From positions 66,427,940 to 66,491,939 of the forward strand of contig CM055095.1 of assembly GCA_029204225.1 (NCBI GenBank): 64,000 nucleotides of DNA. The letters run 5' to 3'. Numbering within the stretch: the stretch's first letter is position 1; each line of letters opens with the position of its first letter. Shown one piece after another: positions 196 to 58,657 of this stretch. The notes under the pieces are model-generated. The model did no database searches. It had not been told where the DNA came from and was given only the letters and a program-made list of their open reading frames with translations. Made by a program: the position numbers and the translations under genes. The DNA comes from Diphasiastrum complanatum (taxonomy: Eukaryota; Streptophyta; Lycopodiopsida; Lycopodiales; Lycopodiaceae).

Positions 196-258
196 CTCAA
201 GATTTCGTTGTTGGACACCTGAGAGTGGGGCATTCACAAACACAGCATCAAGATCGTC
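196..258 (-). CDS. HFLX: HflX-like GTP-binding protein, exon 3 (63 bp)
   Basis: Reading the minus strand, a polypyrimidine stretch and TATATGCAG precede 21 codons, and GTGAGC follows. The peptide contains DAVFVNAPLSGVQQRNLE. In plant HflX-family GTPases (bacterial HflX, human GTPBP6, which act on ribosomes) the N-terminal domain has a segment of the form 'DAVFVN..L.G.QQRNLE' just before the conserved 'DR.GLI..IF..RA' block; that match is from memory of the family. Exon length is a multiple of three, phase 0 at both ends, and it joins in frame to exon 2. The GTPase domain itself would be encoded further left, outside the window. Confidence 0.85.
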
Positions 259-1350
259 CTGCATATAAAAACCCCAGTTATCAGCTCGGTCCAAACCATC
301 TTCACCCGTATAAATCCATTGCATGACTAGAAGAAACTCTATCATTAATATTCTCATAGGCTTGTTTACACAAAACAATCAAGAAAGTATAAAATGGATG
401 AAACTCAATTGGTGATGCTCTCATGAACTTGTTTACCCAAACCAATTAAGAAAATATTTCTAGTTAGAGTCTGCAATGGCTTCACTTTTGGCAGGTCAAA
501 ATGGACAGGAAATGGATCTTAATGATTTTAGAAACAGTAGAGAAGAAGTACATCACAAGGTTGCACAAGATAGTGATGTACATAAAATGTAGAAGTATCT
601 CCTTTGACCCAATTTTTTACCTTTGCAAAGAGAACCCCGAACAAACTGTCATCTATCCTATATGTGTGCCCTCATCCAAAATTCCCAAGAATTGTAGTTG
701 GTTCCAACTTCCATCCCAAAAAACATGAAAGGGATGACTTTAACCAAAGCTGGAAAATTAAATAGCCAGAGAAAAATGATGTTTCCTTGGACTATTTCAT
801 GTCGGAAATCTATAGCAACTGTCAAACTAGAATTTGAATCACTGGAGAGAAAGTTATGGCAAAAAATTCAAAAAATATTAACTGTCTGTTACACCGATCT
901 GGAAAAGTCCTGTCATCCCATGTATCGAACTTTACATATTTGGTATCACATAAGAACAATTGACCATAAAAGATGAAGCAACTAGCATCCTCCAACTAAG
1001 AACATTGAAAGAACATCAAATATAGTCAATAGTTGATTCCCCACAAGGAAGAGCAATAAGTTTCCCACAAATAAACCGGGAGTAATCAAAATTCTCACCT
1101 GTTGAATGAATTTCTTATTTCTCTGCTTCCTAGTACTCCAATGAAATCAAAGCTAAAACCTTAGCACAGAAAAAGGTGTCGTATTATTCTATATCCGTGT
1201 CCCATTACAGAACATGAAAGTGTAATTATTCATTGTAAGAAAATGGTTGAAGGCACCGGCCTATGGTCATTTTGTAAATGGATGTAAATAGCACGTTCAC
1301 TAAAAAACACGATGTACGGCATAAGAGTCCAAGATCTAATCTAGAGGCTA

Positions 1351-1653
1351 CTAGACTAACTTCTTATAATGTATAAGTTGACCAGTCAAAGGGACGTGTG
1401 TCATACAATTCTCTGAGACACTTGATCAAATAAATGAGTGTGGTCTAAAAGTTTTAGCTTCTACATGCTTGCCTGTGTCAAGGTCCTCCCAAGTGGCAAG
1501 TGCTAGACTAACTTCCTAGAATGTATTAGTCAAAGGAAGTGTGTCATATGTTCTATGGGACACTTAATCAAAAACATGAGTGATGGTGGTCTAAAAGATA
1601 TAGCAACCTCTACATGCTTGTCTATGAGTCAAGGTCTTCCCAAGTGGCCAGTG
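1351..1653. repeat. 152-bp tandem duplication
   Basis: The block from CTAGACTAAC at 1351 to CAAGTGGCAAGTG at 1502 is repeated, diverged, from 1503 to 1653. Shared landmarks are GTGTGTCATA, ACACTTGATCAAA/ACACTTAATCAAA, GTGGTCTAAAAG and CTCCCAAGTGGC. No function is evident. Confidence 0.75.
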
Positions 1654-2806
1654 TTGGTGGCCGAGTTACATATACCACTTGTCATAGAAGAATGTGTCAG
1701 GGTTTTAGCGAGTAATTGACGAAGTTTATGTGTTGTGTAAAAGCATCTATGCAGCTTAGGTTGGGAGGAGACTGGAAACAAAACTCTCTTGATGTTTCTA
1801 GTATAAGACTAGAGACTATACTAGAGATCTATAAAGATTTTCAGATTGTGTGGAGGAATCACCTACCAAATGTCCATACTCCATGGACCTTCTCGCAATT
1901 TAGAGTCCAACTCCCATTTCAACTGATTTGGAAGCTTGCGCCCAATTTCTAGCTGCTCTTAAGAGCGAGTTTCAAACTTCAGCATCCTAATTGACTATTT
2001 GCATTAGCAGGCTTACCAATTTCGTGCCTTTTACTGATGTTTACAGCTGCCTAAGAGGTTTGCACACAATTTCTAGCCTTCTTGTGAGCAGAATCAGCCC
2101 CATAGAAGTCTTGAGTTTCACCTTTTTTGTTGCTAGCTTTTGAGGAATTGCTACTTCAAAGTTGCTCAGGGTCTTCTATTAGTAGGTCACAAAAGGATTA
2201 AGCATGTAGACCACTAAACTTTGTAAAACTTGCTTTATTCAGGCTAGTTTTTTAGGATCGTGACTCACTTGCTGATTTTTTTGGGGCAAACTTAGGCACA
2301 CTCTAGATTTTGTAGTAGAAGGTCAATTCCATCCAACTCTTAGAGGAACAAGAGGTTGCCAAGCTATTTCACTATTTTTGTGCACCAGTTTTGCTTGCAA
2401 CTTTGTGTGTTTAGTTTGCTGATGCAAGTTTTGCTAGTCGCTACATAGAAGCTTCCTATAGACATGCTTTTGCTTAATGCTAACCCTACTACACCAATGC
2501 CAATCAAGTATGGATGCTTCTACAGAATCTAGCCATGACTCACAAAGGTTGGATGTTCTTTTCTCTAAAGTGGATGCCATGGAAGCCACTGCTCAAACGA
2601 ATTTAAGAATAATTTAATTCTAGCAAATCTAGCAATGGACCTAGAAGAGTCATGGGAACTGTAGTGGTGGTATGAACTTTGAAGCCAATAAACTTCTATT
2701 AGTCTAGCGCCTATTGATCATCCAAAATCTAACAGACAGACGGAACATACCAACTAGTTGATGGAAGATATGCTTTGGCATATGTCTCTAGGCGACAATC
2801 AAACTG

Positions 2807-3004
2807 GGAAAAGTAACTCCCAATGGTTAAGTTCGTGTACGATAATGTTAAGCTTTCTGCCACCAGATATAGTCAATTTATGTTAATGTTTCGCTTCAGC
2901 CACATGGAAAAGTAACTCCCAAGGGTTGAGTTTGCGTACAATAGTGTTAAGCTTTCTGCCACCAGATATAGTCCATTTGTGTTGATGTTTGGCTTCAGCC
3001 ACAT
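2807..3004 (+). repeat. 99-bp in-frame tandem duplication inside the gypsy integrase remnant
   Basis: GGAAAAGTAACTCCCAA starts at 2807 and again at 2906; both copies run to CGCTTCAGCCACAT or GGCTTCAGCCACAT. The unit is 33 codons and covers the EFAYNS..SPF.LMFGF segment after the catalytic Glu. The two copies differ at several bases, so the event is old. Confidence 0.85.
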
Positions 3005-3489
3005 TCACCCGTATCCGTTACACTCAAAGGTCATAAGGTGCCAACTACAACTCATTTTTACACAATATGCAAGAAATGTTATAGTTGGCTAATGGAAGTA
3101 TAAGAACCGCTCAAGGTCAAGCCCATTTCTATATTGACCGAGGTGCTCACCTCAGAGTTTGAGGTCAAAATTTAGGTGTATCTCAGAAATCTCAAAAGAT
3201 TTTAAAGCATTCCAAATGGGAAAATGTTCGTAGTCATCTCCAAAATATAGTTGTCCTTATAAACTTGTAAAAAAATCAAATGGTTCACTTAGAGACTAGA
3301 TCTTTTGCAAGGGACTAACGTTCATGTTGTATTCCATGCTGGTTGCTTGAAGGAGTGACTAGGTGGAAAGCATAACCTTCTCTAGAAGGTGAACTAGTTC
3401 AGTTGGAGGATTTAATTCTACCCACAATTAGATGATAAAGACAGCCGGGACACCTGGGTCATAAGTCCTTGAGTCTCAAAAGGAATTTC

Positions 3490-3503
3490 TTAAGGGAGAG
3501 AGA
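3490..3503 (+). other. Polypurine tract of the gypsy remnant
   Basis: TTAAGGGAGAGAGA lies just before TGTTATGTAAC, the position expected for the plus-strand primer of an LTR retrotransposon. Confidence 0.5.
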
Positions 3504-4688
3504 ATGTTATGTAACAACGATATGGCCTCAGGTGACAACCTTGGTAAGAGGCTAAATGTTGGTCCGATGTTGTCGTGCCATGCGTCCACACTTCAAACCA
3601 CATGTGTTAGGGTACTAAAGTAGCATGACTAGTGGCTAAATTGCATGTGCACCATGTTTCATTAAGTGGCATCAAAGTTTTAAGATGCTAAAACCATCAA
3701 ACATATCCCTCATAAATTGGACCAAGTGTCCCATACAACAAAGGACATGAGTCCATTTAGAAACTCTATTTAATGCTCGTAATATCAATTTACCATCTTA
3801 TAACCACAAACCTATGGCTAACCCACTTTGATAAATGACCAATATACTTTTTTCAGGCTTACAAGGATAACAAATGTAACAACCTATAACATGCATGCTA
3901 CACAACTTGGAGCTAAGGAGTCTTGGATGTGTCAACATGAGGCTATTTCTTCATATTGAAGTTGTAGCAAATGTTGTGCATCACATAAGAAGAACTCGCA
4001 AGCTCAATAAAGCTACTATCCCTATTCCATGAACCATTAGTCCAAATCTATATGTTTCTCTTCTATCGAACGTGATTTGCCTTTATCTAGTCAAGAAAAT
4101 CGCACATAAAGGGACAACTGAATATCTATTTATGCCAATAATCGGCTCATATGATGTTTCAATCTCCTCTTGCTCTTTTAATCACTTCCCTTTGTCAATC
4201 CTAGGGCATCTATTGTAGTTGGAAACCAAGTCTATCGTAGAGTTTGGCAAGCTGCTAAGGTTCACAAGGTCAGTGATATGCCATGCATTTTTAGTGATGG
4301 TTCCATTTCTCAAGAATGATTCTTCAAGAGGAATTTACCACCCGCAAAGCTAAGAACCATAAAACTTGAGCTCTTTGTATTTTTGCTTAAGACAATGAGC
4401 TAGTAGCAAACCATACTATGGTAGGAGACTCATCACATCCTCAAGACAATTCTTCCAAGTCCATCACTCATGTCATAACAAATAAAAAAAATATATCCAG
4501 AACATCTGTCATGTTTTAGAATAATTGAGAAATAGAACCTAATTATGAACCATGATCTCTAAAATTTCCCAAATCCATAGTTTTAGGAGTAAAGTTATGA
4601 ACTAGATTTTACAACTTTCCATTTTAATAAAAGCTATGCCGAACTTCTTGAATGGTTACACAACTTTCAAATAGAACAGCATGACCAC

Positions 4689-4753
4689 CTTAGCATTTAC
4701 TGCATCAACATGGGCACGCACAATTTCAACTGTCCCTGGTCCCAAGTATGCGC
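4689..4753 (-). CDS. HFLX: HflX-like GTP-binding protein, exon 2 (65 bp)
   Basis: On the minus strand, TTTGCTGATTTGTTTCTAG (acceptor) precedes 65 bases that begin with the last two bases of a Gly codon and end AAG before donor GTGGTC. The peptide begins AYLGPGTVEIV and ends DAVNAK. Plant HflX proteins carry a matching 'AYFGPGTV' motif at this place. Exon 1 ends in phase 1 and this exon starts with two bases of a codon, so the join is exact; it then continues in phase 0 to exon 3. The phase match of three independent pieces is the main evidence. Confidence 0.85.
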
Positions 4754-5860: not shown

Positions 5861-6640
5861 TTGACTCCTTCTCCAGCGCTGCCCCTTCCATTGCTATGGC
5901 TTCAAACAAAATGGGGGGGCCTCCATCACCCACCTCTTCTCCTACTTATGCTGGCCAGTCACCTGCTTCTGCTGGCCAGTCAGTATCTATCCGACTTTGA
6001 ATCTCTTAACAGCTATTTACAACATCAGTTCAAAGAAGTGCTACAATTTATCGAGAAATTGCAACTACAGAATCAGACGCCTCATGGAGAAATGATCAAG
6101 GTCAGTCTTCAAAATAAGGACTTACAAAGAACTGTTGACATGATGAAAGTGAAAGGGGTGCAGGATCTTCATTCGCAGCAAGATGTGGAAAGTAAAATCT
6201 CGTCTTTGGCAAAGGACGTGGAAGAAACTCATACTTGGGCTTCGGTTCTTAAGCAAGATGGTAATATTTCCTCCAACCAAGTTCAGCCCTTTTTCGTGAA
6301 TTCTACTTTGGAGAATGTTTTTACAGAACAAGAGAAAGGAGCCAAGAAGGCTCTTAATATCCGAGTTAGGGGTATTCCTAATGGAAACTAGGCCCTTGAG
6401 AAGGCAAAAGACCTTCTTGTATCTAAACTTTCACATCATATTGAGGGATTTGACACTGCTTGGCGGAGCAAATTTGATGATAAGGTCTTATTCATAAAGT
6501 TTCGTTCCATTGAACAACGCAATGCTGCTTTACGCCTTAGAGCTAAGCTCAAAGGTACTTTTATTTTTATGGATGAAGATCTAACACACACAATGGCAAG
6601 CGAGGAAAATGGTCATTCATGAGGCCTATGGTAGGAATCA
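5861..6640 (+). pseudogene. LINE A ORF1 (coiled coil plus RNA-binding-like domain), frameshifted
   Basis: An open frame of 176 codons begins at 5861. After a Pro/Leu-rich start it shows a probable coiled coil (SLNSYLQHQFKEVLQFIEKL and following) and a segment HTWASVLKQDG shared with the other LINE copies. The RNA-binding-like part begins ALNIRVRGIPN, then a TAG at 6389 and frame changes follow; KVLFIKFRSIEQRNAALRLR and GTFIFMDED lie downstream to about 6590. The copy in LINE B shows the same order, supporting one ORF1 protein that would bind element RNA. Nonfunctional as read. Confidence 0.7.
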
Positions 6641-6739
6641 AAGAGTGGTCCTTATTGAAGGCAAGCCTAAATTCTACGATAAGATTTCACAATAGGAAGT
6701 CGAGGATCCCGAGCATAGGAACAGCCCGAGATCCCCTCA

Positions 6740-9680
6740 GCCATTACAAATTGGTTTTTGGAATTGTAACGGTGTGCTTTCATCTTCTTCAGCATGGGAT
6801 TCACTCTTTTTTGCAGAAATGTGATAGTTTGCTCTTAGCAGAGACCCATGAATCACTGTATCGACCTCTTCCAGCTATTCAGGATTATTCATGGCATTCA
6901 GCATACAGGCCTTTCCTGAGAGGAAAAACAACGCGTGGCTCTGGTGGTGTAGCATGTCTTACCAAGGAGGCTTATCGTACTCATTTTAAGCTGCTCAAAA
7001 GTGATCCATTTGCGAGATTTATTTGGTTACAGTTCTTTGGTCGCTACTTGGGGTTACCTCGAGATCTCTTTCTAGCAGTTTGTTATTTTGCACCTCAGAC
7101 ATCAGCTTTTGCAGACTATGGTGGTGACCCATTCCAGGCTTTCTCAGACGATATAGTCAGCTTTGCACAACAGGGCCTTATTCTACTAGCAGGAGATTTC
7201 AATGCTCGCACCAGCACCCAACAGACAGAGTTTCATGCAGATAGTGATTTCCTACAGATCCAGGCTTTGGATGTGGGTTTGGACAGGACCTCTCAAGATG
7301 CAGATACCCCAGCTACACACTTTGGAGAACAATTGATTGGACTAGCAGAAGCTCATTCTTTAGCCATTCTGAATGGCCTATCTCGATGGCCATCATCATT
7401 AGTCTTTACTTGCCATCCACACGGAGGTGGACACAGCGTTGTTGACTACATTGGTTCACCAGCCTTGATTCCATTTCTTCATACTTTTCATATTATACAC
7501 CCTACCATCTCTGAGCACTCTCTATTGCTCCTGTCCCTTGGCCATGCTACTCCTGGTACTGTTACGACACCTCATTCCACCCGTACTTTGCGGAAAAAAT
7601 TGCTTACTTTCAGTCTCTGGCACAGAAACTCATCGATTCCTTGGACCTTCTTCCACCTTCTTCTGGAAGATGTTTTCTAAAAACTCATGTAAGCCAGCTC
7701 CTATTTCCATAGAATCTTGGATTGATTATGCTGCAAAACTTTATACAGTTGACTCTCCTCCCATCTCTCTCTCATCGCGACCATCAGAATTCACCCTTTT
7801 CACTCCGTCTATGATTGGAAACGCCATAAAAAATGGTCTAAGTATGGACTTTCTAGAACCTATCGCCCATATTGTTGCTCCATACATCTCCCACATTTTT
7901 AACCAATCTGTTATTTTTGGCCTTCCCACACCTTGGTGTGCTAACCTTCTACACCCTATACTTAAGGGTGGTGATCCTCTGAATGTAGACAACTATCGCA
8001 CTATTATGATCAGCCACACTATGGCTAAGCTCTATGGTTCGGTTATGCAATCTATCATCAACTCTCATGCGGAGACAGAGGAGTTACATGCTATGGGACA
8101 GGCAGGTTTTAGAGCAGGCTACTCCACAGCTGACCAGATATTCATATTGAGATGTATCATTGAGGCGGCGAAGTCCAGGAAACAGAGAGTCTATTGCTGC
8201 TTTGTGGACTTCCGCAAAGCATTTGATTTGGTTTCGAGACACTTGTTGCTCCAGCGTTTGGCGTCTCTTGGTTTCTCACAGGAGGTCATTGCTGCTATCA
8301 TCACATTATATGAAAGAGTTTTGGCCCGTTTCCGTGATGGAGATGGATGGTCTTCATATATTCATAGTACGATAGGAGTAAAGCAGGGGTGTCCTTTGTC
8401 ACCCACCCTCTTTGCTCTATACATTGACGACCTTGAGCAAATCATTCGGGAAGAAGGTGGAGATGGCAGTCCTCTAGCAGATATTATTATCCCTATCCTT
8501 CTTTATGCAGATGATGTGGTTCTATTATCTAGTTCAGCTGCAGGACTTCAGCGACATCTAGATGCCTTGTATACTTTCTGTCAAATATGGGGGCTGATGG
8601 TGAACATTGGTAAGACTAAGGTTATGGTGTTTAACACCAACAGACAGCATATGAGAGACACTATGTTCTATTATGATGGACAGCTTCTTGAGATAGTGGC
8701 GTCTTACACATACCTGGGCGTTCTCTTCTCTGGTCCATTGCTTTCTTTTAGACCAGCTGTATTGGCTAGGCTCCGCAAGGGGCGCTCTGCTCTTGTTCAG
8801 ATGGAGAGGTTTTCCTCTACTTATTATGTGCATGACCCGGATACACGTTGTCGCCTTTTCTCCTCGACTGTTTCTCCAGTTGCATTGTATTCATCAGAGA
8901 CATGGTGTCCAAGCTTATCTAGAGACACTTGGAGTGGCATCTCACGTTTGCAGATTCACGTGCTTAGCCGGATGATTCGGGCCAAGCGGTCAGTTCCTCA
9001 TGAGATTATTTTGGTGGAGTTTGCTTCTCCTCCACTTCCACTGATTGTAGAGGCTATTTTCAGGATCATCACATTCATTCACAAAGTCTCAAAGCTTGAT
9101 TCTTCCACATACGTGGTAGCGGCTTTTACATCTTCTCGCACTTTGGCCGAGCAGCGGGCTAAGTCCTCATGGTTTCAATATGTTTTGGACTTTCTACATA
9201 GTTGGGGATTATCTATGTCTGACCTCCCAAATGGGACTCATGCCTTCATTCATCGACAGATCTGCAAAGCCATATACACTGTCTGGTCTCACCTGGAACC
9301 ATCACGAGTTAAGCTTCAATTCTATCACATTCACTTTCTTCACCTTGATGCTTCAGGGCTTCCCGTCACACCGAGTTATCTCTCTCAAGCGCTATCTTTT
9401 GGCCTGTGCTACCGCATTGGTCAGCTTCAGGTCTCTTCTCATCAGCTCACTATTGAGACAGGCAGATAGATACACAGACATGCCACGACCCCTACGGATC
9501 TGTCAGTGTTGTACACTACAGGAGGTTGAGGATGAGTTTCACTTTATTTTCAGATGTCTAGCTTACTATGAGATTAGAGGTAGATACCATTGTCTCTATC
9601 GTGACATTCCACTCACACTTGGTTCCTTCTTTGCCTATCCGAGAGATCTTCTCTTTGAGATCTTCTCTTCTATCGAATGA
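6740..9680 (+). pseudogene. LINE A ORF2: endonuclease and reverse transcriptase
   Basis: APE endonuclease motifs: FWNCNGV (about 6757), LLLAETHES (6826), GSGGVACL (6937), LLAGDFNART (7180), HPHGGGHSVVDYI (7412) and SEHSLL, where SDH is usual. Reverse transcriptase in the 643-codon frame 7538-9469: NYRTIM, GQAGFRAGYSTADQ, CCFVDFRKAFD, GVKQGCPLSPTLF, LLYADDVVLLS near residue 323, and GKTKVMVFN. The finger C-x2-C..H-x4-C (ICQCCTLQEVEDEFHFIFRC) lies in another frame near 9500-9560. Frame changes occur near 6815, 7560-7680 and 9465. The catalytic residues of endonuclease and polymerase remain visible; the protein cannot be made whole. Confidence 0.85.
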
Positions 9681-11676: not shown

Positions 11677-12750
11677 TGTTGTAAAGCTACCTTTACAAGC
11701 TTTACTTCCGGTGCCATTGGCGCCAGCTATGTCCCCGGCGCCAGCAGCGCCCCTGCTGCTCCCGGCGCCGCTCCCGGCGCCACTGTGACCAGAATCCAGC
11801 CGGCGCCAAGTTCCTATGGCTGAAAATCTTTGATCGGTTCTAGCGGAGTCCAGAGAGCTCAGATCGATGTGCAATCACCTCACACGATCTAGGCATGATT
11901 AAAGGAAGCCTGGGGATCAATAAAATCTAGAGAGAGAAAATGACTTTCTAGAAAGAGAAAATCCTAGAGAGAGAAAAACGTGCTTTACCAGCTTAGGTAG
12001 AGTGCTTGTTATGAGGGGAGGTGCCGAATCACACCAATACTATAAGGGAGTGCGGGTTGCGACTCAGGGCGAGCTCCAACCAAGTCTCAGCCTCCCTTGC
12101 TGGAATGTTGTCATGGCTCTCGCCTTGGCATGCTAGCGCCCCGGAGACTAGGGTCGTATCCCGGGACGCCAGCGGTATGCCGTCGGGACCATTCGGTCCG
12201 TGACGCCAGCGGTATGCTGTCGGGACCATTTGGTCCAGGAACTGGTTGTTTCCATATCTGTCGCGGCTTGTGGTTCTGAGTGTTCCTTGCATGAACGTGA
12301 ATGGGTTAAGCTCTTGGGGAACGGGCTCTAACCTGTCGGCTGAGTTGGATGGCTTGCTTGGGTGGATGTTACCTGTTTATGGCTGTCCAGTCTGGCGTGG
12401 CGCCAGGTTGGCTTCCAGCGCTCGTGACGAAGCTTTCAGTTGGTTAAGTCTGATGTAAGTCAGACGGCTTGCTTGGAATGGATGTTACTCGTTGGTAACG
12501 AAGCTTCGAGTTGGTTAAGTTTGACGTATGTCGGGCGGCTTGCTTGGAGGGAAGTCACCCACGTCGGGACTCCCGATCTGGCATGGCGCCAGGTTGGATC
12601 TCAATGTTGGTTTCGGAACTTCAAGTTGGTTAAGTCTGATCGTTGTTGGCGAGTTGGCTGCTTGTATGTCGAGTGGGTTTGGATGGCAAGAGTTGAAGGC
12701 TGGGAAGCTAAGTCGTGGTTCCCGGCTCCCTTTGGGATGCCTGCGCTACA
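11677..12750 (+). repeat. Left LTR (1074 bp) of the LARD-like element
   Basis: Runs from TGTTGTAAAG to GCCTGCGCTACA. It contains a GC-rich stretch with at least five GGCGCC boxes (about 11716-11806), a 38-bp unit repeated near 12158-12235 (CGCCAGCGGTATGC), and repeated modules GTTGGTTAAGTCTGA and GGCTTGCTTGG between 12290 and 12640. Open frames here are not genes. Confidence 0.95.
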
Positions 12751-12751
12751 T

Positions 12752-12765
12752 GTGGTATCAGAGCC
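12752..12765 (+). other. Primer binding site for initiator tRNA-Met
   Basis: TGGTATCAGAGCC lies two bases after the left LTR and is complementary to the 3' end of plant initiator tRNA-Met, where minus-strand DNA synthesis starts. Confidence 0.9.
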
Positions 12766-12840
12766 GACTGGCCGGTCAGCTATGCGGATCTCACGGAAAT
12801 GGCCACGGTTTGGGGTTCATCAAGACAACTGTTGTGCAAG

Positions 12841-13228
12841 GTGCTGCCCACAGTGTAAGCACGGGTGCGTCCACGGTCGGGGTGGTCGGCAGAACGGGGG
12901 ACTTGATGAGTCAAGGTGCTGCCCTTGAGGTGTAAGCACGGTCAGTTCTCGCGGTTCGGGCCTGGCGCTGTCTGCACGTAGGACGGATGAGGCAAAGTGC
13001 TGCCTAGGTAGGTGAAAGCACGGTCTGTACCTTGTGGGGTGCGGGGCGACATATTCGAACTGTACGGGTTAACCATTGAGACAGAGATGCTGCTCGAATT
13101 CGGGTGTAAAGCACGGGTGGTTAGCTGCCGGTGCGGGATAGCTGCCGATCGTTTAGCTATAAGGGCTATCGACCAAAAAGTGGTGGGGCGTGACTGAGGC
13201 AATGTACTGCTTAATGGTGAAAGCACGG
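12841..13228 (+). repeat. Five imperfect hairpin units GTGCTGCC...AGCACGG in the leader
   Basis: Units at 12841-12864, 12916-12941, 12997-13023, 13087-13116 and 13204-13228 share GTGCTGCC (last two variant), a spacer of 9-15 bases and GTGTAAGCACGG or GTGAAAGCACGG. GTGCT pairs with AGCAC. They start about 90 bases after the primer site, where retroelement RNAs often carry packaging or dimerisation signals; that role is inference. Confidence 0.75.
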
Positions 13229-13502
13229 ATGGTTGGAGGGGTGTCCTATGTGGGCTGATTCTGTGATCGATTTGTATGGGCGCGGCCAGGCAAAGGTCCG
13301 TTGGCAGGACCATCTCAAAGGGGGACCTTGTCTTTGTTACTTGTTAGTAAACCTGCCTGAGTGTCTTACTTGTACGTATTCGTGGTGAGTCTTAGTACTC
13401 GTGCTTTGCCTGGTTTGCATGATTGCTTGTGATACAAGGAGCTGATGGCTCGAGAAGGAACCTTTTCTTTTGAAGGCTGATACCATCAAACAAAGAGGAC
13501 TA

Positions 13503-14005
13503 CAGAATCTGTGGGGCGGATTTGCAGTTCAAGTACTCACACGTGAACGACAACGAAACGACTCAATGTTTGCAAAGGATGGATGGCTAGCCTGTTTCTT
13601 AGGTTAGTTTCATTTGCGACAACGCCCACCAGACGCAAGCAGGAAGTCAAAAGTTGGAAAGGGCCATTTCAGGGGAGATCTTCTATGGAGCAGTTGGTCT
13701 TCATTTTGGGACGGCCACCTTCGGAACTGAAACTCACTGAGCATGAGCGATATCCAGAATCTGTGCGGCGGATTTGCAGTTCAAGTACTCGCACGTGAAC
13801 GACAACGAAATGACTCAATGTTTGCAAAGGATGGATGGCTAGCCTGTTTCTTGGGTTAGTTTCATTTGCGACAACGCCCACCAGACGCAAGCAGGAAGTC
13901 AAAAGTTGGAAAGGGCAATTTCAGGGGAGATCTTCTATAGCAGTTGGTCTTCATTTTGGGACGGCCACCTTCGGAACTGAAACTCACTGAGCATGGGTGA
14001 TATCC
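13503..14005 (+). repeat. 252-bp tandem duplication inside the LARD-like element
   Basis: The block beginning CAGAATCTGTG at 13503 recurs at 13755 with few changes, including a three-base difference at CTATGGAGCAG versus CTATAGCAG. A third start (GATATCCAGTATC) follows at 13999 but does not continue. Confidence 0.9.
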
Positions 14006-15327
14006 AGTATCAGTTGGGTTTTTCCTCAAAGGGGAAAAGACTAGGATCCTCTTCAGAGATTGGCAACAAGTTGGATCGAGCCATAATCCTAGCAGATGGG
14101 AAGCAAAGTGTTGGAAAGGCTTTTTGTCCGAAGAACTCTACTCTAAGTCCGATCAGCTGATTTATTAAGTGGAGGGGAACTATCACACACACCTCTCTCT
14201 TGGGGCAAATTTTGAATGAAAGTTGATCAAAATGGGGGCAAATTCAAGGTGACCTAGCCATACTCACACGAGGAGACTGGCGAACTTTGGACCTAATAAG
14301 TTGACAAGTTTTTGTTGTGGAAAGGAAAGTTTGTTATAGGCTTTCTCTGGACCAGCAATGATGAGGAAACATATGAGTACGCTGGCTTGTGTTACGTGTA
14401 AGGCAGCTGATCAATGAAGGAACTGTGAAAGTTGAGTCTTGCATAGAGACTTGGTATTTCGAACGGACGCTAAGGGATAGTTCGCGTTGAGATCGGACTA
14501 GTGCAAACTCTGGGTGCATGTTTCTGATTCAAAGAGAGCTACTTGAAGCTAAGCTCGATGTACACTTCTTGTTTTGACTGTGAGGCAACTAACCAGTGAT
14601 GGAATTGTGAAAGTCAAGTTTTGCGCGACGGACATGGTGCTTCAAACAAACGCGAAGAGATAGTTCGGATGCGGATCAAACTGGTGCGACCCTTTGGCTT
14701 TCCACGAGGTCAATGGTTACATTTGGGCTGATTCAAAGAGCTACTTCAAGCTAAGTGAGAGGTGCATTGCGGAGTACTCAATCTTTGCCTACCTTAAAGA
14801 GCCAAGATGGAAAAGTATCAAGATCAGGCTGGGACAAGGAGAGAAATCAAGGTGGAGAAGCAACAAGGCACGGAGTGGACCAATAAGTGGGCAATCAAAC
14901 GATAAATCCTTCGGCTCAGGGAGCCTTGATACCTGTGCGGAACCCGAACAAATCTAGAGCTCAGGGAGCTCAACACAAAGTGCATCAAGGACAAATCAGG
15001 AGCTCAAAGGAGTTCCAAAGTCGAAAGTCAGAAGCGACAGGGGCGAACATTTCAAAGAAAGGCCTCTGTCACCAGTTAATAAGGCTCTCGGGTTTTACGA
15101 AAGCGATATCAAATCTACGCTTTTCCCAGACAAAGATATTTGTTTCAAGTTATGTAATTTTTCAGTACAAAGAGCTGAGCCTCCGACTTGTGGTGTGCCA
15201 GCTTCAATGTTAATAAAAAAGTGGCCAGTAAATTGAGTACTGTGCCAAGTAGCATAAATGTATAGTCATTTTAATTGGGAGACACCTTTACTTTAATCTG
15301 ACATCTGATGAGGACATCAGATTTTAT

Positions 15328-15341
15328 AAAGGTGGGGTGGA
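15328..15341 (+). other. Polypurine tract of the LARD-like element
   Basis: AAAGGTGGGGTGGA directly precedes the right LTR, as expected for the plus-strand primer. Confidence 0.8.
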
Positions 15342-16667: not shown

Positions 16668-16697
16668 GGAGCATGGCCCTCCGGACTAGGTAGCGGT

Positions 16698-18348: not shown

Positions 18349-18434
18349 AGCTTTCATGCTCCCACCGTGCATACTTGACATGTACCTTTTTCAGTCCTAT
18401 GTACCTTAGGGTATGTCATGGACATTTATAAAGA

Positions 18435-18438
<4 letters not shown>

Positions 18439-18516
<78 letters not shown>
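18439..18516. repeat. (CT)n tract between LINE B and LINE C
   Basis: About 39 CT units after TATAAAGATCTTT; LINE C begins at once with GCGTGCGCGCC. Confidence 0.95.
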
Positions 18517-18518
<2 letters not shown>

Positions 18519-39408: not shown

Positions 39409-39410
39409 AG

Positions 39411-39422: not shown

Positions 39423-39423
39423 A

Positions 39424-41932: not shown

Positions 41933-42007
41933 ATCATCCTATCTACCATAGAGAATACCAAATCTCAAAGTGCCCTGGATATATCTGAGTATTCGCTTAG
42001 CAGCTTT

Positions 42008-42544: not shown

Positions 42545-42551
42545 AATAACA

Positions 42552-43886: not shown

Positions 43887-43950
43887 ATCATTTATGTTTC
43901 CAATCTTCCCTGAAGGTAGTTGTACTTGTACTTTTCTAACTCCCTTTATA

Positions 43951-44148
43951 TCATGTGTAGTTGTCCCCCAACTTCACATTTGACCCATCATCTAATTTCT
44001 GAAAATTAGATAGCCAGTCTCGCCTAGATGTCATGTGCTTCGAAGCTCCTGAATCAATAAAACAATAGTCATCTTCCTTCGAGAAGCCACCACCAGAAAA
44101 TGTCGATGCCGAAAACAACTCATAGTCTTCAAGGTCCAAAGCACTCAT
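43951..44148 (-). pseudogene. Copia-3 protease
   Basis: FIDSGASKHMTSRRDWL (Asp-Ser-Gly-Ala) marks the aspartic protease. It starts at an ATG that overlaps the gag stop (ATGA), in another frame, and is shifted again at about 43951 before the DIKGVRKVQVQLP block. Confidence 0.85.
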
Positions 44149-44849
44149 TTTGCATTAGATGTTTCTTCTTCTTCAGCAAAATTCTTGTCCTGCTTTTTCT
44201 TGGATTTGTTGTGCCAGCACTCCTTTGCATAATGTCCTAATTTTCCGCAGATAAAGCAATTTCCTTTTCGAACCATTTTCTTTCCATCTTCTGATCGATT
44301 CGATTGATTCTCCTCCATATCTTGCTTCTTCTTCTTCTTCTTCTTCCCTTTGCCACCCTTCTTGGAACTTTGCTCTTGCTTCTTTGCCAGGAATGCCTGT
44401 TCCTTGAAATCGTCCATGTTGACAATATTTTGTCGTCTCATTTCTTCCTGTAGTAAGATGGGATTTAGCTCATCGAAAGAAGGCCTCGTTTCTCTTAACG
44501 ATAGAATCATTACAAAGTTCTGATAGGCCAAAGGTAGACTATTAAGTACAATGGATACCAATACTGAATCTTGAACACTTTTTCCAACTACAATAAGTTG
44601 GCCTCTCAGATCTTTCACTCGAGTACAGTAGTCCGTTACTGATTCACCTGTACCCATCTTCAACGTGTGAAGCTTCTTAGTCAAGAACAAGATCCGTGAC
44701 TGATTTACCGTCTCATACAAGTTCTTCAGTATATCCCAAGCCTCCTTGGGTCCAGTAGCATCTCTGATATGAGGTATAATCATATCTCTTACTGATAAGT
44801 TGATGATATGATGATCCCGGCAGTTATCCCTCCGTCCGTGCATGTTCAC
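44145..44849 (-). pseudogene. Copia-3 gag, 5'-truncated
   Basis: Reads HHIINLSVRDMIIPHIRDAT, AWDILKNLYE, LKMGTGESVTDYCTRVKDLR, a lysine-rich linker and the knuckle CFICGKLGHYAKEC. The first dozen residues come from neighbouring gypsy sequence across the junction at about 44821. Confidence 0.85.
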
Positions 44850-45226
44850 ATGGATAGTATGGAGAGGAACATGGCCGAGATGCAGCTTATGCTACCCTCC
44901 ATTGCCGGAACTTTGCCTCTTCTTCACAGTATCCTTCATAGTTTCCTTCCCACATGTCACCCCAGTTTCCCACTCCACCCATCGAGCGACCTGTTTATGT
45001 CGATTCCCCAGTCCAGTTCCTGGATGATAAAGACATAAAACCTACTAAATATGTTGGAAATAGAGAACCACTGATGTGGTAGATCAGTGGTTGCACAAGT
45101 GGGAAGAATATTTTGTTTTTAAAAGAGCTCCAACTAATGAGGGTTGGAGAATTCGGAAAGCGGCTTATCACTTTACTGATTTTGCTGGCAGGTGGTGGCG
45201 GAAATTGCTCAAGTCAAACCCACCTG
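44822..45226 (+). pseudogene. Gypsy-2 gag, first part
   Basis: Degenerate N-terminus, then DVVDQWLHKWEEYF and RKAAYHFTDFAGRWWRKLLK, typical of Ty3/gypsy gag. It stops at NPP (45226), where a minus-strand LTR starts, and continues at 48092 with TWVEFK-like sequence (one stop) in the same order. No 5' LTR or primer site is left. Confidence 0.75.
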
Positions 45227-45616: not shown

Positions 45617-48013
45617 ACTCCTAAAAGGAGCTTTCGTCCTCGAAAGCGAAATCTTCAAGGATGAAATCAGGATACCTCTTGCGAAGATTGTTTACAGACT
45701 CCCAAGTTGACTCTTCTTAGGACCCATCCTTCCACTTGACTAAAACTTCTCGAAAGACCGCATGACAAGTCTTGCGGTTTCAGATATTCAGAATTTCCTC
45801 TGGTTCGTGTGGCAAGGAATTAGGTTCCTCAAAGTCTGTTAGGGTTTGTTCAATATTGTCTCCTTCTCGCATCACCCGCTTCCGTTGACTGACATGAAAG
45901 ACCGGAAGTACTTTTGTGGATTTTGGTTAAGCCAGCTGGTAAGCAGAACTTCCAATTCTCTTGAGTATTGTGAATGGACCACAATACCTCGGGGACAACT
46001 TAGGACACTTGCCTGTGCTTAGAGTGGTAGAGTCTTCAAGAATTTTTGACCCGATCACCTTCTTGGAAGGTAACATCCCTGCGCCTTAGCTTGCGCTTGC
46101 GCTTGCGCTTGCTTCACATTAGCCTTAGCTATCTTGATCATGGTTTCCATATCCTCAAGAAACTCTCTAACACTCTGTACTTTCTTTGTCCTAAGCCCTA
46201 CGGCCATGGGGACTCTAAGTTGAAATCTATACATTAACATGAATGGGTTGTACCCTGTAGTGGAGTGTTTGGTACTGTTATAAGCAAACTCCAAAAGCGG
46301 AAGATACTCTTCCCAATTGGTTTGCTTCTTACTAACATATATGCTCGTAGCATATCTTCTAGAACCTCATCGACCCTTTTCGTCTGACCATCCGTTTCAG
46401 GATGATCAGTGGAGCTCATAGACAACTTAGTTTCTAACTTGTTAAACAGCGCCCTCCAAAAGCTACCTGTAAATTTTGGATCTACATCACTGACTATATT
46501 GGTGGGAAGCCCATATAGCTTATAAATATTTTCTACAAAAAGCCTGGCAACTTCTGGAGCTGTAACAGTTTTCTTGGTCGGGAGAAACCGCACCATCTTG
46601 GTCAATCGGTCTACAACTACCCAGATCAAGTCATGGCCTTTACTCATTCTTGGTAACAAAACTATAAAATCCATGCTGATACTCTCCCATCTACCACCGA
46701 ATATCTCTAGTGGCTGGAGGAGCCCGCCTACCTTGAGACGTTCAGCCTTTATGGCCTGGCATGTGGTGCACCTTAACACGTAGTCCTGTACGTCTTTCTG
46801 CATACTAGGCCAATAAAACGTATTCTTTGCAAGAGCATAGGTCCTCTTTATCCCGGGATGCCCTGCACTGGGACTGTCGTGACTTTCCTCAAGAATTTGG
46901 CGCCCGAAGTCACCACCCTTGGGTACACATACCCTTCCTTTATAAAAGAGGTACCCGTCCTCAATGGAGAAATTCTTCCATCGAGCATCCGCAACACCTG
47001 TTGATGGCACATCCACTTCGGATGTTTCCGCAACATCTTCAGGCGGCGTGTCCCGTCCCGACGCAACTGCAACATCTTTCGATGGCCCTGCAACACTCTC
47101 TGATGGCGCTAGTGTGATTGTGGAATTCCTTTGCTCAATAGCCTGCCACACAAGTGCGTAGTGAGAATCACTAACACACTTTCCTCTGAGTGATTCTAGG
47201 AATTCACTCCTGAATGCCATAAAACTTAGCGCACTTACCATGGGCATTCGACTCAGGGCATCTGCTACCACATTGTACCGCCCTTTCCTGTTACATCCTG
47301 TACCTTAGTTGATAGTCAAACTCTTGGAGAAGTTCGGCCCAATGAGCTTTCCTTCCTTTCAAGTCGCTTTGAGAGAAAAGCCACTTGATACTTTCTTGAT
47401 CAAACACAATCTCAAACTTAGCTCCATAGAGGTAATGCCTCCATTTCTTAAGAGCATAGACTATTGCAAACAACTCCTTCTCATAAGTGGAATAATTTAA
47501 CTGGTGTTTATCCAGTTTCTTACTTTCAAACGCGACCGAGGACTGTCGTGTTGAGTGAGAACAGCACCAACTGCCTGATTACTGGAATCAGTTTCTACCA
47601 CAAATGCTTCATTTGGATCCACTAAACTTAAGACAGGAGCAGACTAAAGTACTTGCCCTTACCCTTGAGCTGACCCGTCAAAAGAGCAATCAAGCGGGCA
47701 TACTGAGGGATAAACCTCCTGTGGAAACTAGCCAATCCGAGGACGATCTGCAGCTCTTCCATCGAAGTTGGTACTAGCCATCGCATAATTGCGGCTACCT
47801 TTTTAGGATCCATCTTGATCCCCCGGAGATAATATGTCCGAGGTAGTGAATCTCTTCCTTGAAGAATTCATATTTTGATTCCTTTGCATAGAAGGAATTC
47901 TCTCTCAGGACCTGGAACACTTGACGCAAAATGATCAAAGTGTTTTTCTTTAGTACGACTAAAGACTAGGATATCATCAAGGTAGATTAATACAAACTTG
48001 CCCAAGAGATGTC
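45617..48013 (-). pseudogene. Gypsy-3 pol remnant
   Basis: From right to left: polymerase GKFVLIYLDDILVFSRT; MDPKKVAAIMRWLVP; RNase [18 protein letters not shown]; integrase frame 46234-47271 with EESHDSPSAGHPG and CTTCQAIKAERL, SMDFIVLLP, SDVDPKFTG and TDGQTKRVDEV. In the last box Lys replaces the catalytic Glu (usual TERVN). Then [30 protein letters not shown] and chromodomain REVLVKWKDGS with a stop. Several frameshifts. A repeated Asp-Val/Thr linker lies between RNase H and integrase. Confidence 0.85.
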
Positions 48014-48879: not shown

Positions 48880-49324
48880 TCTTGTTTTATTCGACATCGG
48901 CTCCTCGCATAACATTATCAATTCTCATGCGGTGAAGAAGCTGAACTTGGCTACTGTGCCTTCAGATTACCGGTATACAGTTGAGATGCCAGATGGTAAG
49001 GGCACAGAAGTGTGGGATCAACAAGTCTCTCATGCGCTATTACCTATTCCTACTTATTCTGAGAAGTTAGACTTTGAGAACACAAAATTAGCCAAGTTTG
49101 ATATTGTATTAGGTAAGCGGTGGCATGCGAGTAAGCAGCCCGCTATTGACTTTCTTGCACATGAGTATGTTTTCAGGCACCTGGTGGGGGAGAGGCCATC
49201 TGCACCTGGTGGGGGAGAGGCCATCTGTACAGGGTCCTCTTATCACGTCTATGCAAATAAAGAAGTTGGATTTCCAGTATTTATGGTTTTGTTATTTAAT
49301 AAATGTGGATTTCAGTTTTTATGA
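48880..49324 (+). pseudogene. Gypsy-2 protease region
   Basis: LFDIGSSHNIINSHAVKKLN is the gypsy aspartic protease box with Asp-Ile-Gly in place of Asp-Ser/Thr-Gly. Then [12 protein letters not shown] (the usual D..LG.DWL block). It ends in an exact 25-bp tandem duplication (49177-49226). Confidence 0.8.
49177..49226 (+). repeat. Exact 25-bp tandem duplication in gypsy-2
   Basis: GCACCTGGTGGGGGAGAGGC and the next five bases occur twice in a row, at 49177 and 49202. Twenty-five bases shift the frame. Confidence 0.95.
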
Positions 49325-49399
49325 TTCGCAAATAAATGCACATGTTAATAATTCAAAAGTAATATCATCGCATTTAACTTCTATAAATTATGTTTTGGC

Positions 49400-50760
49400 T
49401 CAGCAACTCAAGTGTGATCCAGCACGTCAGCTGGAAAAGGCCATCCGAGCTGAGTTTAAACATTTGTTAATTGATAGCATGCCAGCGGGATTGCCACCCA
49501 GGCGGAACGTGGAGCACCATATTGAGCTTGTTCGGGCAAGCCCGGTATGTCGGCCTCCTTATAGGATGAGCTTGAAAGAGGAAGAGAAAGTACGGAAAAT
49601 GTTGGAGGAATACCTCAAGTTGGGATATGTCCATCCTAGTTACTCACCTTTTGCCTCTCCCATTTTATTAGTCTCGAAAAAGGATGGTAGTTTCCGGATG
49701 TGCATTGATTATTGGGGATTAAATAAAATCACTGTAAAGCACAGATATCTGATGCCCAGGATTGATGATCTACTGGATGCGTTGCAGGGAGCAACCATTT
49801 TCAATAAGATAAATCTCAAAAGTGGGTACCATCAGATACGGATTCGCGAAGAGGACATTCTGAAGACAGCCTTCCGAACCCGTTTTGGACATTATGAGTT
49901 CTTGATTATGTCGTTTGGGTTAACCAATGCACCCGCCACGTTCATGATGCTCAATGTCCTGCGTGACTATATGGGCAAGTTTGTCGTCAACTTCATTGAT
50001 GACATACTAGTGTTCAATAAGTCGGTAGGGAAGCATAAGATTCATCTCCAGACCGTCTTTGGCAAGCTATAAAAGACTGTCTTGTATGCCAATGCTCAGA
50101 AGACCGAGTTGTGTAAGACTCATGTTGAGTATCTGAGTCATGTAGTGATGGCAGAGGGTATTTCTGTTGACCCCGCCAAGGTGGCTGTGGTCAAGAAGTG
50201 GCCAAGACCGGCCAATATTCGTCAGTTACAGTCTTTCCTAGGCTTTTGCAAGTTCTACCGACGGTTCGTTATGAACTATTCCAAGGTAGCTGCTCCTTTA
50301 ACGGATCAATTACGGAATAACAACACTGTGGTTTGCTGGGATGCTTAGGCTCAGCATAGTTTTGACAGCTTGAAGGAGGCTATTGCGACAGCCCCAATAC
50401 TCAAGATTGTGGACCCCCAGAAACCTTTCGACCTAGAGACGGATGTTGGTGGCATTGTCGTGGGTGCAGTTTTGAGTCAGGAAGGTAGACCAGTAGCCTT
50501 TGAAAGTAAGAAATTGACACCAGGGCAACAGATATATCCCACACATGAGCAAGAGCTGTATGCGATTATACATGCGCTCAAGGTGTGGCCATTATTTATA
50601 TGGCACCAAATTTTACATGTATAATGACCATCATACTTTGAAGTACCTCTGCACTCAGCCAGATTTGAAGGGCCGCTAGGCTCAGTGAGTCGAGCTGATG
50701 TAGGAATTTCATTTAGAAATTCACTTCCGAAGAGGGAAGGAAAATGTGGTCGCTGATGCA
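49400..50760 (+). pseudogene. Gypsy-2 reverse transcriptase and RNase H
   Basis: [49 protein letters not shown] (Trp where Arg is usual), [23 protein letters not shown] (Phe-Ile-Asp-Asp), then LYANAQKTELCKTHVEYL, FLGFCKFYRRFV, RNase H LETDVGGIVVGAVL and VVADALSR. Stops at 50070, 50346 and within 50600-50700. Confidence 0.88.
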
Positions 50761-50855
50761 CTATCTCGGATACTGCATCAGATGAGCTTTACGGTAGTTG
50801 ACAGTGATCTCATGGAGAAGATGAAGAGAGCTCAGCCGACACACATTGCCAGCAT

Positions 50856-52341
50856 GTGTGGCCTGATGCACACAAGGTAGTCGATCAAGCGGAAGAGTCA
50901 GTCGAGGTTGTCGCTTCCACAGAGGCACACACCAGTACATATCTAACATACACCATGAAGGATGGTATGTTATTGACAACCGGCAAGATTTTCGTGCCAA
51001 ACGTGAAGGATCTTCGTCGTAATATACTTCATGAATGCCATGATAGTCCCCGCGCAGGGCACCCAGGTATTGATAAGACCAGTGAATTGGTAAGAAGGCA
51101 TTATCTCTGGCCACGATTGTAGCGAGACGTCAGGAAGTACGTCCAGCGTTGTACGGCTTGTCAGGTGAACAAGGCCGAGCGGGTAAGTCCTCCGGGCTTA
51201 CTGCATCCATTGGAGATTCCTGCAGTATGGTGGGAAAGTATCTCCATGGATTTCATTGTTGGCTTCCCAGGACCCAGACGGGATTTAATTCCGTTATGGT
51301 ACAGGTTCTCCAAGATGACTCACTTCATCACAACAACCAAGAAGGTCACAGCTCCGCAGGTTACTAAGTTGTTTACTCGGAATGTCATCAGGTTGCATGG
51401 ACTTCCGAAGTCCAATGTGTCTGACAGAGATCCCAAGTTTAAGGGAAATTTCTGGATTGAGGTGTTCGCCAGGTTGGGAACACAGTTGCGGATGAGTAGT
51501 TCCGAACACCCTCCTCAAACGGATGGTCAGACAGAGCAAGTGAACCAGGTCTTGGAAGATATGCTTAGGACATATGTCAGTGGTACCCAAACAGACTGGG
51601 TAAAGCATTTACCGCTATTGGAGTTTGCGTACAATGACAAGAGACATGCGTCCACTGAATTGAGTCCATTTGAGCTCAATTATGGTTTTAGGCCGCTGAG
51701 TCTTGTGATCATAGGAACTCAGCGTAAGGTACACAGTGCTGCAGAGTTTCTAACTCAGATGCAGCAAAAGCTAGAGATGGCACAAGATATAACTTGTCCA
51801 GGGCTATGGCCAGGGCAGAGAGTTATAGTCGTGAGAACCGTACCTATCGGGAATTTGAGAAGGGAGATTGGGTATATTTACTAGTCCCTTCGAAGTCGAA
51901 GGAGCTATGCACAAGAAGGTGCACCAAGTTATCTCCTAGGTATTGTGGACATGGTTGATTATTAAGGTCAGCCAAGTAGCATATAAGCTACAGCTACCTG
52001 TGGGATGCAAGGCGCATCCAGTGTTTCATGTTAACAAACTTAAGAAATGTTTGCACGATGGCGATAGACTGGTGGAGGGTCTAGTTTCTCTGGAAAAGAA
52101 AGACACCACAGGTTATGGGCCAAAGAGAGTCCTAGATCAGAGGGAGCGATGATTGAGGAATCATCTCCTCCAAGAGTATCTAGTGGCTTGGAAGGGGCAT
52201 CCTTTTTCTAGAGTTTTGTCATCGAGGATCGATGACTTGCTAGAAGAGGGAAGGATTGTTAGATGCAAGTCCAGCTCTGACGTATTCCCAACACAACCAA
52301 TTACTAGGGGCCGAGGGCCAGGGTATTGGCGAGGCCAGTAA
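50856..52341 (+). pseudogene. Gypsy-2 integrase and chromodomain-like end
   Basis: Zinc finger ECHDSPRAGHPGIDKT with [12 protein letters not shown]; core SMDFIVGF, SDRDPKFKG and TDGQTEQVNQV keep D, D and E; then LLEFAYNDKRHASTELSPFE, SPRYCG and a linker KAHPVFHVNKLKKCL. The final block LLQEYLVAWKGHPFSR resembles a chromodomain. Stops at 51120 and 52150, plus frame changes. Confidence 0.85.
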
Positions 52342-56140: not shown

Positions 56141-56144
56141 GACA

Positions 56145-57710
56145 CTACAGTTGTACAACCCTTGAAGCAATTCCGTACATCACGAGAATACTGCATTCCA
56201 GCCATGACTACCAGGTTTGTGAGATTCGCTACATTTCATATGTGTCCTGATGAGACAGTTCACCAATACACCAGGCGAATGTTCGATCTCGTAAAAGATG
56301 TTGATCTACAGAGTCCATAGACCATAATGTAGAACTTCTATTTTGGATTACTGGACAACCTCAAGTCTGGTATAAAGAAATTCGCATCTTAAACTTCATT
56401 ATCACAGATGCGGTCATTACGGAGAATTTTATCATAAAGAAGAGAGGAGATCACTCCTATCCAAACGTAGAAATATCAAATGGGGAATAAGGAAAGTCTG
56501 AAAGTTTAATGCTAGTCGAACATACAAGGGAGGAAGGCTATGAATCATTAGGGAGTGCAACAGAGTCAAGCGGGTCAAGTGCAGCAGAAGACCAAGAATC
56601 TTACAGTTCAGCTTGTCCTCAAGCTTATGCTCGCATAGTCAAGTTTCTTGAGAAAGACCAATGTACATACTGCTTCGGCGGTCATCCAAGTATAAGATGT
56701 CCAATCATGAATCCCCGCTTCTTACAATAGAGCAGCAAGTTCAATAGTCAAATCTAAGAATTCAACGATTAGAAGCAAAATCAAGCTGACAAGGAGCTCA
56801 TCCGGAGGATGGATGTCAAAGTGATCCATCTAAGTCACGAGTTTTTTCAACACCCAGTGGCAAGGTGGAAATATTGGTCATATCATCTTGCATGTCTCCA
56901 AACTCCAAGGAAGACCGCAATAGCCTACCAGTTTATTTTGTGGAAGATCCTGAGGGAAATCTATTACCAATCTATGCCTATCAACTTAGAGGTGATGGTG
57001 TATTGCACTTGGTAAGATGCAATGGATGCGGAGGAAAACATCGTCGAGCCGAATGTCCACATCGAGGGGATCCATCAACATTCGAACCCTGTTGTGCACA
57101 ATGCGGAGTCAATCATCCATGCCGAGATTGTCCGATGAGAAATTCACAAATAGCTAGGAGGCATTTGGCGTATGTAGATCAATATGCACCTATGTTGACC
57201 AATCCACCTATAGATAGAATGCACTACAAAGGGAAAATCCTAGTGCCACCGGGTTATGAAACAAGTGAGAAAGAAGACAATCTGACAAAAGTCCCAAAGT
57301 ATGCAAAGATACCCTCGAGCAGACAAGCAACAACAACATCACAGAAGACGGAGCTGGTAGAATCTATTAAGCCAATGGTAACTGAGAAAGTCAAGAAATT
57401 GGCAACCAACAAAGTCCAGCGGATTTTACCAAGTCTCTTGGCACAATCATTGCAAAGATTTTTTAGTGATGAATCTCTCAAGGAACCTGTGTCAACAGAG
57501 CAAATTGAAGATAGTTCTGTACAAGATCCCGGAAAAAGTGCAGTCACGCAGCCTTCAACTAGGAAGTACAACGATAGGGAGAAGACTAAGGTTGACGATT
57601 GCCCTTCACTGAGCAAAACTCAACCAAAGTCGGATGGTCCCACGATGCAACAAACCCTAAATCCTAAACCCGAATCCGAGTATAAAAATATAAGCCCAAA
57701 AAGTGCTTAA
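56145..57710 (+). pseudogene. Gag-like locus with three atypical zinc knuckles
   Basis: 56150-56350 reads REYCIPAMTTRFVRFATFHM and DETVHQYTRRMFDLVKDV, capsid-like, with two TAG stops. Frame 56509-56730 ends with knuckle CTYCFGGHPSIRC; frame 56865-57710 (281 codons) has CNGCGGKHRRAEC and CAQCGVNHPCRDC near residues 53-90, then a Lys/Ser/Thr-rich tail with a helical stretch (VQRILPSLLAQSLQRF). All three knuckles have C-x2-C-x3-H-x4-C, one residue shorter than the retroviral form. No protease or polymerase follows. It could be an old retroelement gag of an unfamiliar family or a host-derived gag gene; the family is not recognised. Confidence 0.5.
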
Positions 57711-58203
57711 ATTTTTCAAAATAGTAAGTTTAGAAGCTATAAAGAGCAAAAAAATTTGCTAATTTTAGCAGGTGAGCTTTGAGAACGTCTGGATGGCCTC
57801 TGTGGATGCTTTGGGGATGTTTAGGAGCATTGGAAAATTTCTATAAAATTTCAGCAGCATCCATCATGCAAATATGTGATGCTTCCCGACTGTACCTTTG
57901 ATTGGACAGAATGACCAGGTTTGTAGATCCAAATATGCATATGCCCTAATGTGCCCACAACAAAGATAAATGATTGATAGACAAATGACATGTTCCAAGC
58001 TAATACCAAAAAAAATAAGACATGCAAATAGCTTGAAGAAGACTATCTATGAAGTCTTAGTACAATTTACAACATTCCGTCAGCACCAAGAGGAAAATGC
58101 TTCCCATCAGCTTAAAAAGAAGACCTTAAACAATTGATAGCTTGTTACAACAAGAAATCCAGCTGCAAAACCGAGGAGCTTAAGAGATTGACGTGTCATG
58201 AAC
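57711..58203 (-). other. 5' end of intron 1
   Basis: No exon or element recognised between the gag-like locus and the exon 1 donor. Confidence 0.5.
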
Positions 58204-58657
58204 CTGCATTTATTTGCTTCTTCAGACCAGAAGCACTTTTTTGAGTGGATTGCACAAGCACAAAAGGAGACAATTGCCTTGGTTCTGGGTTGAGCCCATG
58301 ACCAAGGTTGCTATCATCTTCTCCTTTCCTTAACCCGTGCAACGAATCTGCAAGGCGTAAAGCCTCCAACAATCTTGCTCTCAGCAGTGGTTTGGGGTGA
58401 ATCCGAGGCTGCACCACCAGCAGCTTTGGGGGCTTGCTGGGATCACGATGGTTGACGAATCCTCTACAACTGCTGGCAAAGGCCTGTAGGCTGCTACTTC
58501 TCAACACAATGATTCTACGGAAAGTCGCCCATGTCCGGGAAACTGGAAGCTGGGTCGATGCAATTTCACATTTGAGCTCCGGAAGATGTGAATAGTTACT
58601 ATTTGCACCCACATTTTTGCGAATTAAACATGTGCCCAGATGCCGCCATCGCTCCAT
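58204..58657 (-). CDS. HFLX: HflX-like GTP-binding protein, exon 1 (start codon, 454 bp)
   Basis: Begins at ATG 58657 and stays open to donor GCAG|GTTCAT, 151 codons plus one base (phase 1). Residues 1-75 are rich in Arg and Ser with few acids (RTWATFRRIIVLRSSSLQAF), as in mitochondrial or plastid transit peptides. KPPKLLVVQPRI and LLEALRLADSLHGL follow, and PFVLVQ near the end; plant HflX proteins start their conserved part with the same pattern ('PKL.VVQPR..P...L..KL.EAL.LA.SL' and a later 'VVQ'), from family memory. Without splicing the frame would end six bases past the donor. The product would be an organelle GTPase acting on ribosomes, by analogy with bacterial HflX. Confidence 0.85.

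Follow-up and report, generated by a model that had tools for sequence, protein, structure and literature searches.

The 64,000-nucleotide stretch of Diphasiastrum complanatum DNA analysed here (the window; C4:66427940-66491939, where C4 is contig CM055095.1 of assembly GCA_029204225.1) very probably holds the 5′ portion of a land-plant nuclear gene for an HflX-like GTPase; the gene is apparently intact and probably single-copy, and its 13 exons have come to span 108.7 kb through retrotransposon insertions. The assembly comprises 1,744,706,496 bases (1.74 Gb) in 5,176 contigs, and the contig carrying the window is 78.7 Mb long. An earlier note on the window had proposed three minus-strand exons (58657-58204, 4753-4689, and 258-196) separated by a 53-kb first intron and a second intron, with the exons of the GTPase domain expected to the left. 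The coordinates of all three exons, their phases (1, then 0), and their GT-AG borders were reproduced in full, introns 1 and 2 were computed to be 53,450 and 4,430 bp long, and ten more exons were located to the left of the window, in order, on the same strand, and within 50.1 kb.

Structure of the HflX-like gene

The ten further exons were found in the 100 kb left of the window by using nine of the 120 listed homologues (described below) as tblastn queries, and the exon boundaries of the 13-exon model were set from the tblastn matches, reading frames, and splice sites, with GT-AG borders and phase used as selection criteria. The model encodes 563 residues and measures 108,725 bp from start to stop codon, with introns accounting for 98.4% of this length, and GT-AG borders flank 12 of 12 introns with every joint in phase, the limits having been picked to meet that condition. 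The exons, from 1 to 13, are 454, 65, 63, 90, 113, 69, 154, 56, 51, 55, 57, 123, and 342 bp long, and the introns, from 1 to 12, are 53,450, 4,430, 213, 305, 2,402, 8,043, 23,382, 461, 1,150, 150, 110, and 12,937 bp long. Intron 7, between exons 7 and 8 (23,382 bp), and intron 12, before the last exon (12,937 bp), are thus also long.

Exon 1 (58204-58657, minus strand, 454 bp) carries the start codon and the PPKLLVVQPR...LEALRLADSL block, and ends in phase 1 at the donor GTTCAT. An in-frame stop lies upstream of its first ATG, and its N-terminus forms a putative organelle-targeting region. Intron 1 (4754-58203, minus strand, GT-AG) contains many retrotransposons, and is followed by exon 2 (4689-4753, minus strand, 65 bp), which encodes a portion of the HflX N-terminal domain and ends in phase 0, by intron 2 (259-4688, minus strand, GT-AG), and by exon 3 (196-258, minus strand, 63 bp; DDLDAVFVNAPLSGVQQRNLE), which also ends in phase 0. 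Intron 3 (minus strand, 213 bp in total) occupies positions 1-195, with its other 18 bases left of the window, and exons 4-13 run on the minus strand from C4:66427921 down to 66377872. The last of these required a choice, with a scan of intron 12 yielding two candidate starts for exon 13, and the open frame from the picked start reaches the matched C-terminus. The flank upstream of the start codon (58658-64000, minus strand) would hold the 5′ untranslated region and promoter.

Intron 2 contains two short tandem duplications, at 1351-1653 and 2807-3004, whose copies are 77% and 90% alike respectively. A weak match at ~2430-2386 of the same intron to the protein segment that follows exon 3 (E of roughly 0.9-9 for many homologues) was considered as a misplaced exon and rejected, since two stops confine it to a stretch of 36 codons, the resemblance is short, and exons 4 and 5 were located further left.

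Conservation and domain composition

The 194-residue peptide joined from exons 1-3 was compared over residues 66-194, and its matches are plant HflX-like proteins, led by those of Sphagnum, Marchantia, and Calypogeia (59%, 57%, and 53% identity respectively), with ferns at 48-49%; of 720 candidates, 141 reached E≤1, and the best 120 were listed. Alignment of this peptide with 13 homologues is continuous over both joints, with three of the homologues carrying a single additional residue next to the second joint. Against 10 full-length homologues the complete model is gap-free at all 12 joints, with only one single-residue gap, in one homologue, near joint 1 and none near joint 2, and the model keeps 162 of the 166 residues that are invariant in these ten proteins.

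Searching the 164 kb made up of the window and its left flank with the same nine homologues by tblastn gave 96 matches at E<0.05, each of which lies on the minus strand and overlaps a modelled exon (96/96), with between 10 and 13 of the 13 exons matched by each homologue. This overlap is partly circular, as matches of this kind served to set the exon limits; independent of them are the absence of matches elsewhere in the 164 kb and the decoys, with no matches obtained in the reversed sequence or in any of 10 dinucleotide shuffles.

The 13-exon model scores 302.9 bits against TIGR03156 (GTP_HflX, NCBIfam), where the cut-off is 216.75, and contains PF13167 at residues 146-212, PF16360 at 215-311, and PF01926 at 328-432, placing the N-terminal, middle, and G domains in order and all above cut-off. 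The translation also carries GYTNAGKSS, DTVGF, and NKVD intact, which we take to be G motifs. Domain scores and homologues alike agree with the HflX assignment made in the earlier note, and exclude best hits outside HflX. Together with the aligned homologues, these features argue for a gene that is intact and under purifying selection.

When the whole assembly was searched with the peptide of exons 1-3, the only matches at E≤0.001 were two inside the window, to exon 1 (335.3 bits) and exon 2 (33.4 bits). Exon 1 thus has a single match in the assembly. The very short exons of another copy could escape a search of this kind, a second similar exon 1 should not, and the gene is probably single-copy on this evidence.

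Placement among plant HflX proteins

The full model was searched against a database of 5.8 billion proteins, with 7,998 candidates sharing most words scored and 7,995 proteins matching at E≤1e-10. The 120 best, which were listed, are 48-67% identical to the model, and those with names are plant or streptophyte-alga GTPases, many of them called At3g49725. Other named matches are called only HflX or GTPase, and none is named At5g57960 among the two lists of 120. The relatives, plant proteins often named At3g49725, suggest an HflX-like GTPase of that type.

In a protein tree drawn without canonical chloroplast HflX, the protein falls outside the group of ferns plus seed plants (support 93/91, which is below the starred level), in an unresolved fork with Selaginella, whose branch is long, and the mosses; no starred group includes the protein of the window. 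According to the portion of PMC10784650 (2024) consulted, two HflX homologues occur in most green plants. The second of them, termed “HflX-like”, retains the N-terminal and G domains and is described as without the C-terminal domain of canonical HflX; it was detected in fractions of mitochondrial ribosomes, while its predicted location is the chloroplast. We infer that the At3g49725 type corresponds to this “HflX-like” clade, the name At3g49725 being absent from that paper's text. The gene described here resembles the plant HflX-like proteins (At3g49725) in having the same three HflX domains, with an unbroken alignment that extends from the VQPR block near the N-terminus as far as the G domain. 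The comparison was made at the protein level; the gene itself spans 108.7 kb here.

Retrotransposons of the first intron

The earlier note had described intron 1 as packed with nested retrotransposons, and nested long terminal repeat (LTR) elements and long interspersed nuclear elements (LINEs) are indeed present. Three LTR elements are delimited by both repeats, and all three carry the primer site TGGTATCAGAGC, presumably of the plant initiator tRNA-Met (transfer RNA for methionine) type. Element A (11677-16415, plus strand) has 1,074-bp LTRs that differ at 5 of 1,074 sites and a target-site duplication (TSD) of GAAGG on both sides. No open reading frame of at least 150 residues lies wholly between its LTRs, and it represents a recent and probably non-autonomous insertion. 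Element B (23510-26352, plus strand) has 455-bp LTRs that differ at 6 of 455 sites, and an imperfect TSD, ACGAC/GCGAC (4/5). It interrupts a LINE, a related copy of which, at 19400-21330, is uninterrupted at the same place. A 396-residue open frame in element B, at 24528-25718, has no Pfam match.

The third element, of Ty3/gypsy type (28688-35104, minus strand), has LTRs at 28688-29045 and 34747-35104 that differ at 5 of 358 sites, the TSD ATCTT twice, and a gag-pol frame at 29705-33550. Among the 120 matches listed for its reverse-transcriptase region, no named protein is near-identical. It too is nested, with a related unfilled copy of the surrounding repeat near 39.2 kb, in opposite orientation, continuing through the insertion point. 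The two copies form an inverted pair, 28450-28687 plus 35105-35935 (split by the gypsy element) and 39409-38434 (unsplit). The low divergence between the LTRs of these elements suggests recent growth of intron 1.

The remaining coding pieces, of LINE, copia, and gypsy type, are spread over both strands taken together, with some Pfam matches below the curated cut-offs. LINE endonuclease and reverse-transcriptase frames at 6577-9469 (plus strand) are both above the cut-offs. Several further LINE copies and fragments, interrupted by element B, occupy 16668-28409 (plus strand), with an endonuclease at 16668-17228, related copies at 19738-21330 and 26345-27985, and weaker matches, below the cut-offs, at 21347-22363 and 22364-23149 (plus strand). 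A tandem duplication of ~510 bp (18709-19217 and 19222-19728, 98.4% alike) overlaps LINE-related sequence, and may be a biological or an assembly effect. Ty1/copia-type pieces at 37012-44891 (minus strand) comprise a reverse transcriptase (37012-37962), an integrase (42552-43973), and a gag (44145-44891), with a gag fragment on the plus strand within this region (39766-40410) below the cut-offs. A Ty3/gypsy-type integrase fragment at 46234-47304 (minus strand) has an H2C2 domain above cut-off and an integrase core below it, and the plus-strand pieces at 49113-51884 consist of a reverse-transcriptase fragment (49113-50072, above cut-off) and an integrase fragment (51123-51884, below).

Five of the searched frames have no Pfam match. 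A 306-residue open frame at 56790-57710 (plus strand), ~0.5 kb from exon 1, lacks a Pfam match and has zinc-knuckle-like cysteines; it is possibly an unclassified gag. Rfam and tRNA scans of the window gave no matches.

Alternative explanations

Several observations weigh against an intact gene spliced across these introns. Exons 1-3 alone fall under the Pfam cut-off for PF13167 (20.8 versus 25.4 bits) and far under that for TIGR03156 (16.5 versus 216.75 bits), and their peptide has no match among solved structures at E≤1, so that, before the remaining exons were located, the identification depended on homologues. Exon 3 was under the E≤0.001 threshold of the genome search, which is weak for short exons. 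No near-identical protein occurs among the 120 matches listed for the full model, so that none of them backs it as an independent annotation; existing annotations may lack the gene or hold it in fragments, or the species may be unannotated. The transposons and exon 1 could not be told apart by their CpG and CHG ratios, which thus lend no support to heterochromatin, and the splicing of the exons is itself predicted from DNA sequence.

The distance between exons 1 and 2 could in part be an assembly artefact around a real gene, through a misjoin or through collapsed or expanded repeats in intron 1. The intron is rich in repeats, and near-identical pairs such as 18709-19217/19222-19728 can mislead assemblers, so that a misjoin would be possible from the sequence; however, the 164 kb contain no N, the contig extends over 78.7 Mb, and the matching TSDs on both sides of element A and of the gypsy element make those places look continuous, and we consider such an artefact quite improbable. 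It is improbable, too, that most functional transcripts begin within intron 1 or further downstream, at an alternative promoter or one derived from a transposon, with exon 1 rarely used. LTRs generally carry promoters, and intron 1 holds full-length LTRs, but exon 1 encodes residues that are invariant in all 13 aligned homologues, including VQPR and the EA of the LEAL block, and the in-frame stop ahead of its start codon also argues against an internal start.

Highly improbable, in our judgement, is that the exons are the debris of a formerly functional gene that insertions have disrupted, while an intact copy exists elsewhere, a case that the earlier note had itself raised. The transposon load is very high, the listed matches include no near-identical protein, and the genome search would miss the very short exons of another copy. 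Against this, all 13 exons are open, in phase, and bounded by GT-AG, and exon 1 matches once in the genome; furthermore, the model passes the HflX cut-off and keeps 162/166 invariant residues, which makes pseudogene debris unlikely. An apparently intact HflX-like gene enlarged by retrotransposons is the explanation that we favour with considerable confidence.

Proposed expression of the gene

For such a gene to be expressed, RNA polymerase II would transcribe the entire locus, and the spliceosome, by ordinary GT-AG splicing, would remove the 53.5-kb and 4.4-kb introns and so connect the 454-, 65-, and 63-bp exons. Elements inside the introns would presumably be held as silent heterochromatin, and machinery of the IBM2/EDM2 type could prevent the transcript from ending early inside them, as suggested by the premature polyadenylation in heterochromatic introns of Arabidopsis and rice ibm2 mutants reported in the part of PMC7145194 consulted. 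The protein would then be imported into an organelle, where it may act on organelle ribosomes.

A bolder proposal, which we regard as unlikely, is that output of the GTPase depends on silencing of the retrotransposons in its own introns, with loss of silencing leading to early transcript ends in intron 1 and to less protein. If true, an IBM2/EDM2-like safeguard for giant introns would have existed already in lycophytes, before seed plants.

The locus is a clean example of a small conserved gene that appears intact though introns make up 98.4% of its length, in a genome of only 1.74 Gb. It is a warning that genes of this kind may be overlooked or broken up by gene-finding programs, and would be well suited to the study of transcription and splicing through young retrotransposons in a clubmoss-like plant.

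Comparison with other long plant introns

A search of open-licence literature for long introns in lycophytes, and for HflX or At3g49725, found, among the titles listed, none on the introns of this gene, which is weak evidence of absence. The introns resemble the IBM2-controlled heterochromatic introns of Arabidopsis and rice, as presented in the consulted part of PMC7145194, in being long, transposon-bearing, and promoter-proximal; those lie in transcribed genes, whereas the silencing mechanism is here proposed from sequence.

A comparable gene is MSH1 of green plants, with a longest intron of 101,025 bp, gene lengths of up to 805,861 bp, and a correlation between gene length and transposon share, as given in the section of PMC10487979 used here. 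Both are nuclear genes with introns grown by transposons, and MSH1 encodes a protein of organelle genomes. The proteins differ, and the MSH1 expansions are found especially in gymnosperms, orchids, and Chloranthus, in contrast to the lycophyte examined here. Very long introns are also reported in excerpts on Cycas panzhihuaensis (PMC9023351), with a mean of ~30.8 kb and a longest intron of ~1.5 Mb in an expressed gene, and on coast redwood (PMC8728005), with introns near 2 Mb; these genomes measure 10.5 and 26.5 Gb respectively, compared with 1.74 Gb for the present assembly. Because giant transposon-filled introns are documented in other plants, the earlier note overrated the interest of the locus. 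The known picture of plant introns is unchanged, and this gene is another example of the long, transposon-filled introns already described in Cycas, redwood, and MSH1.

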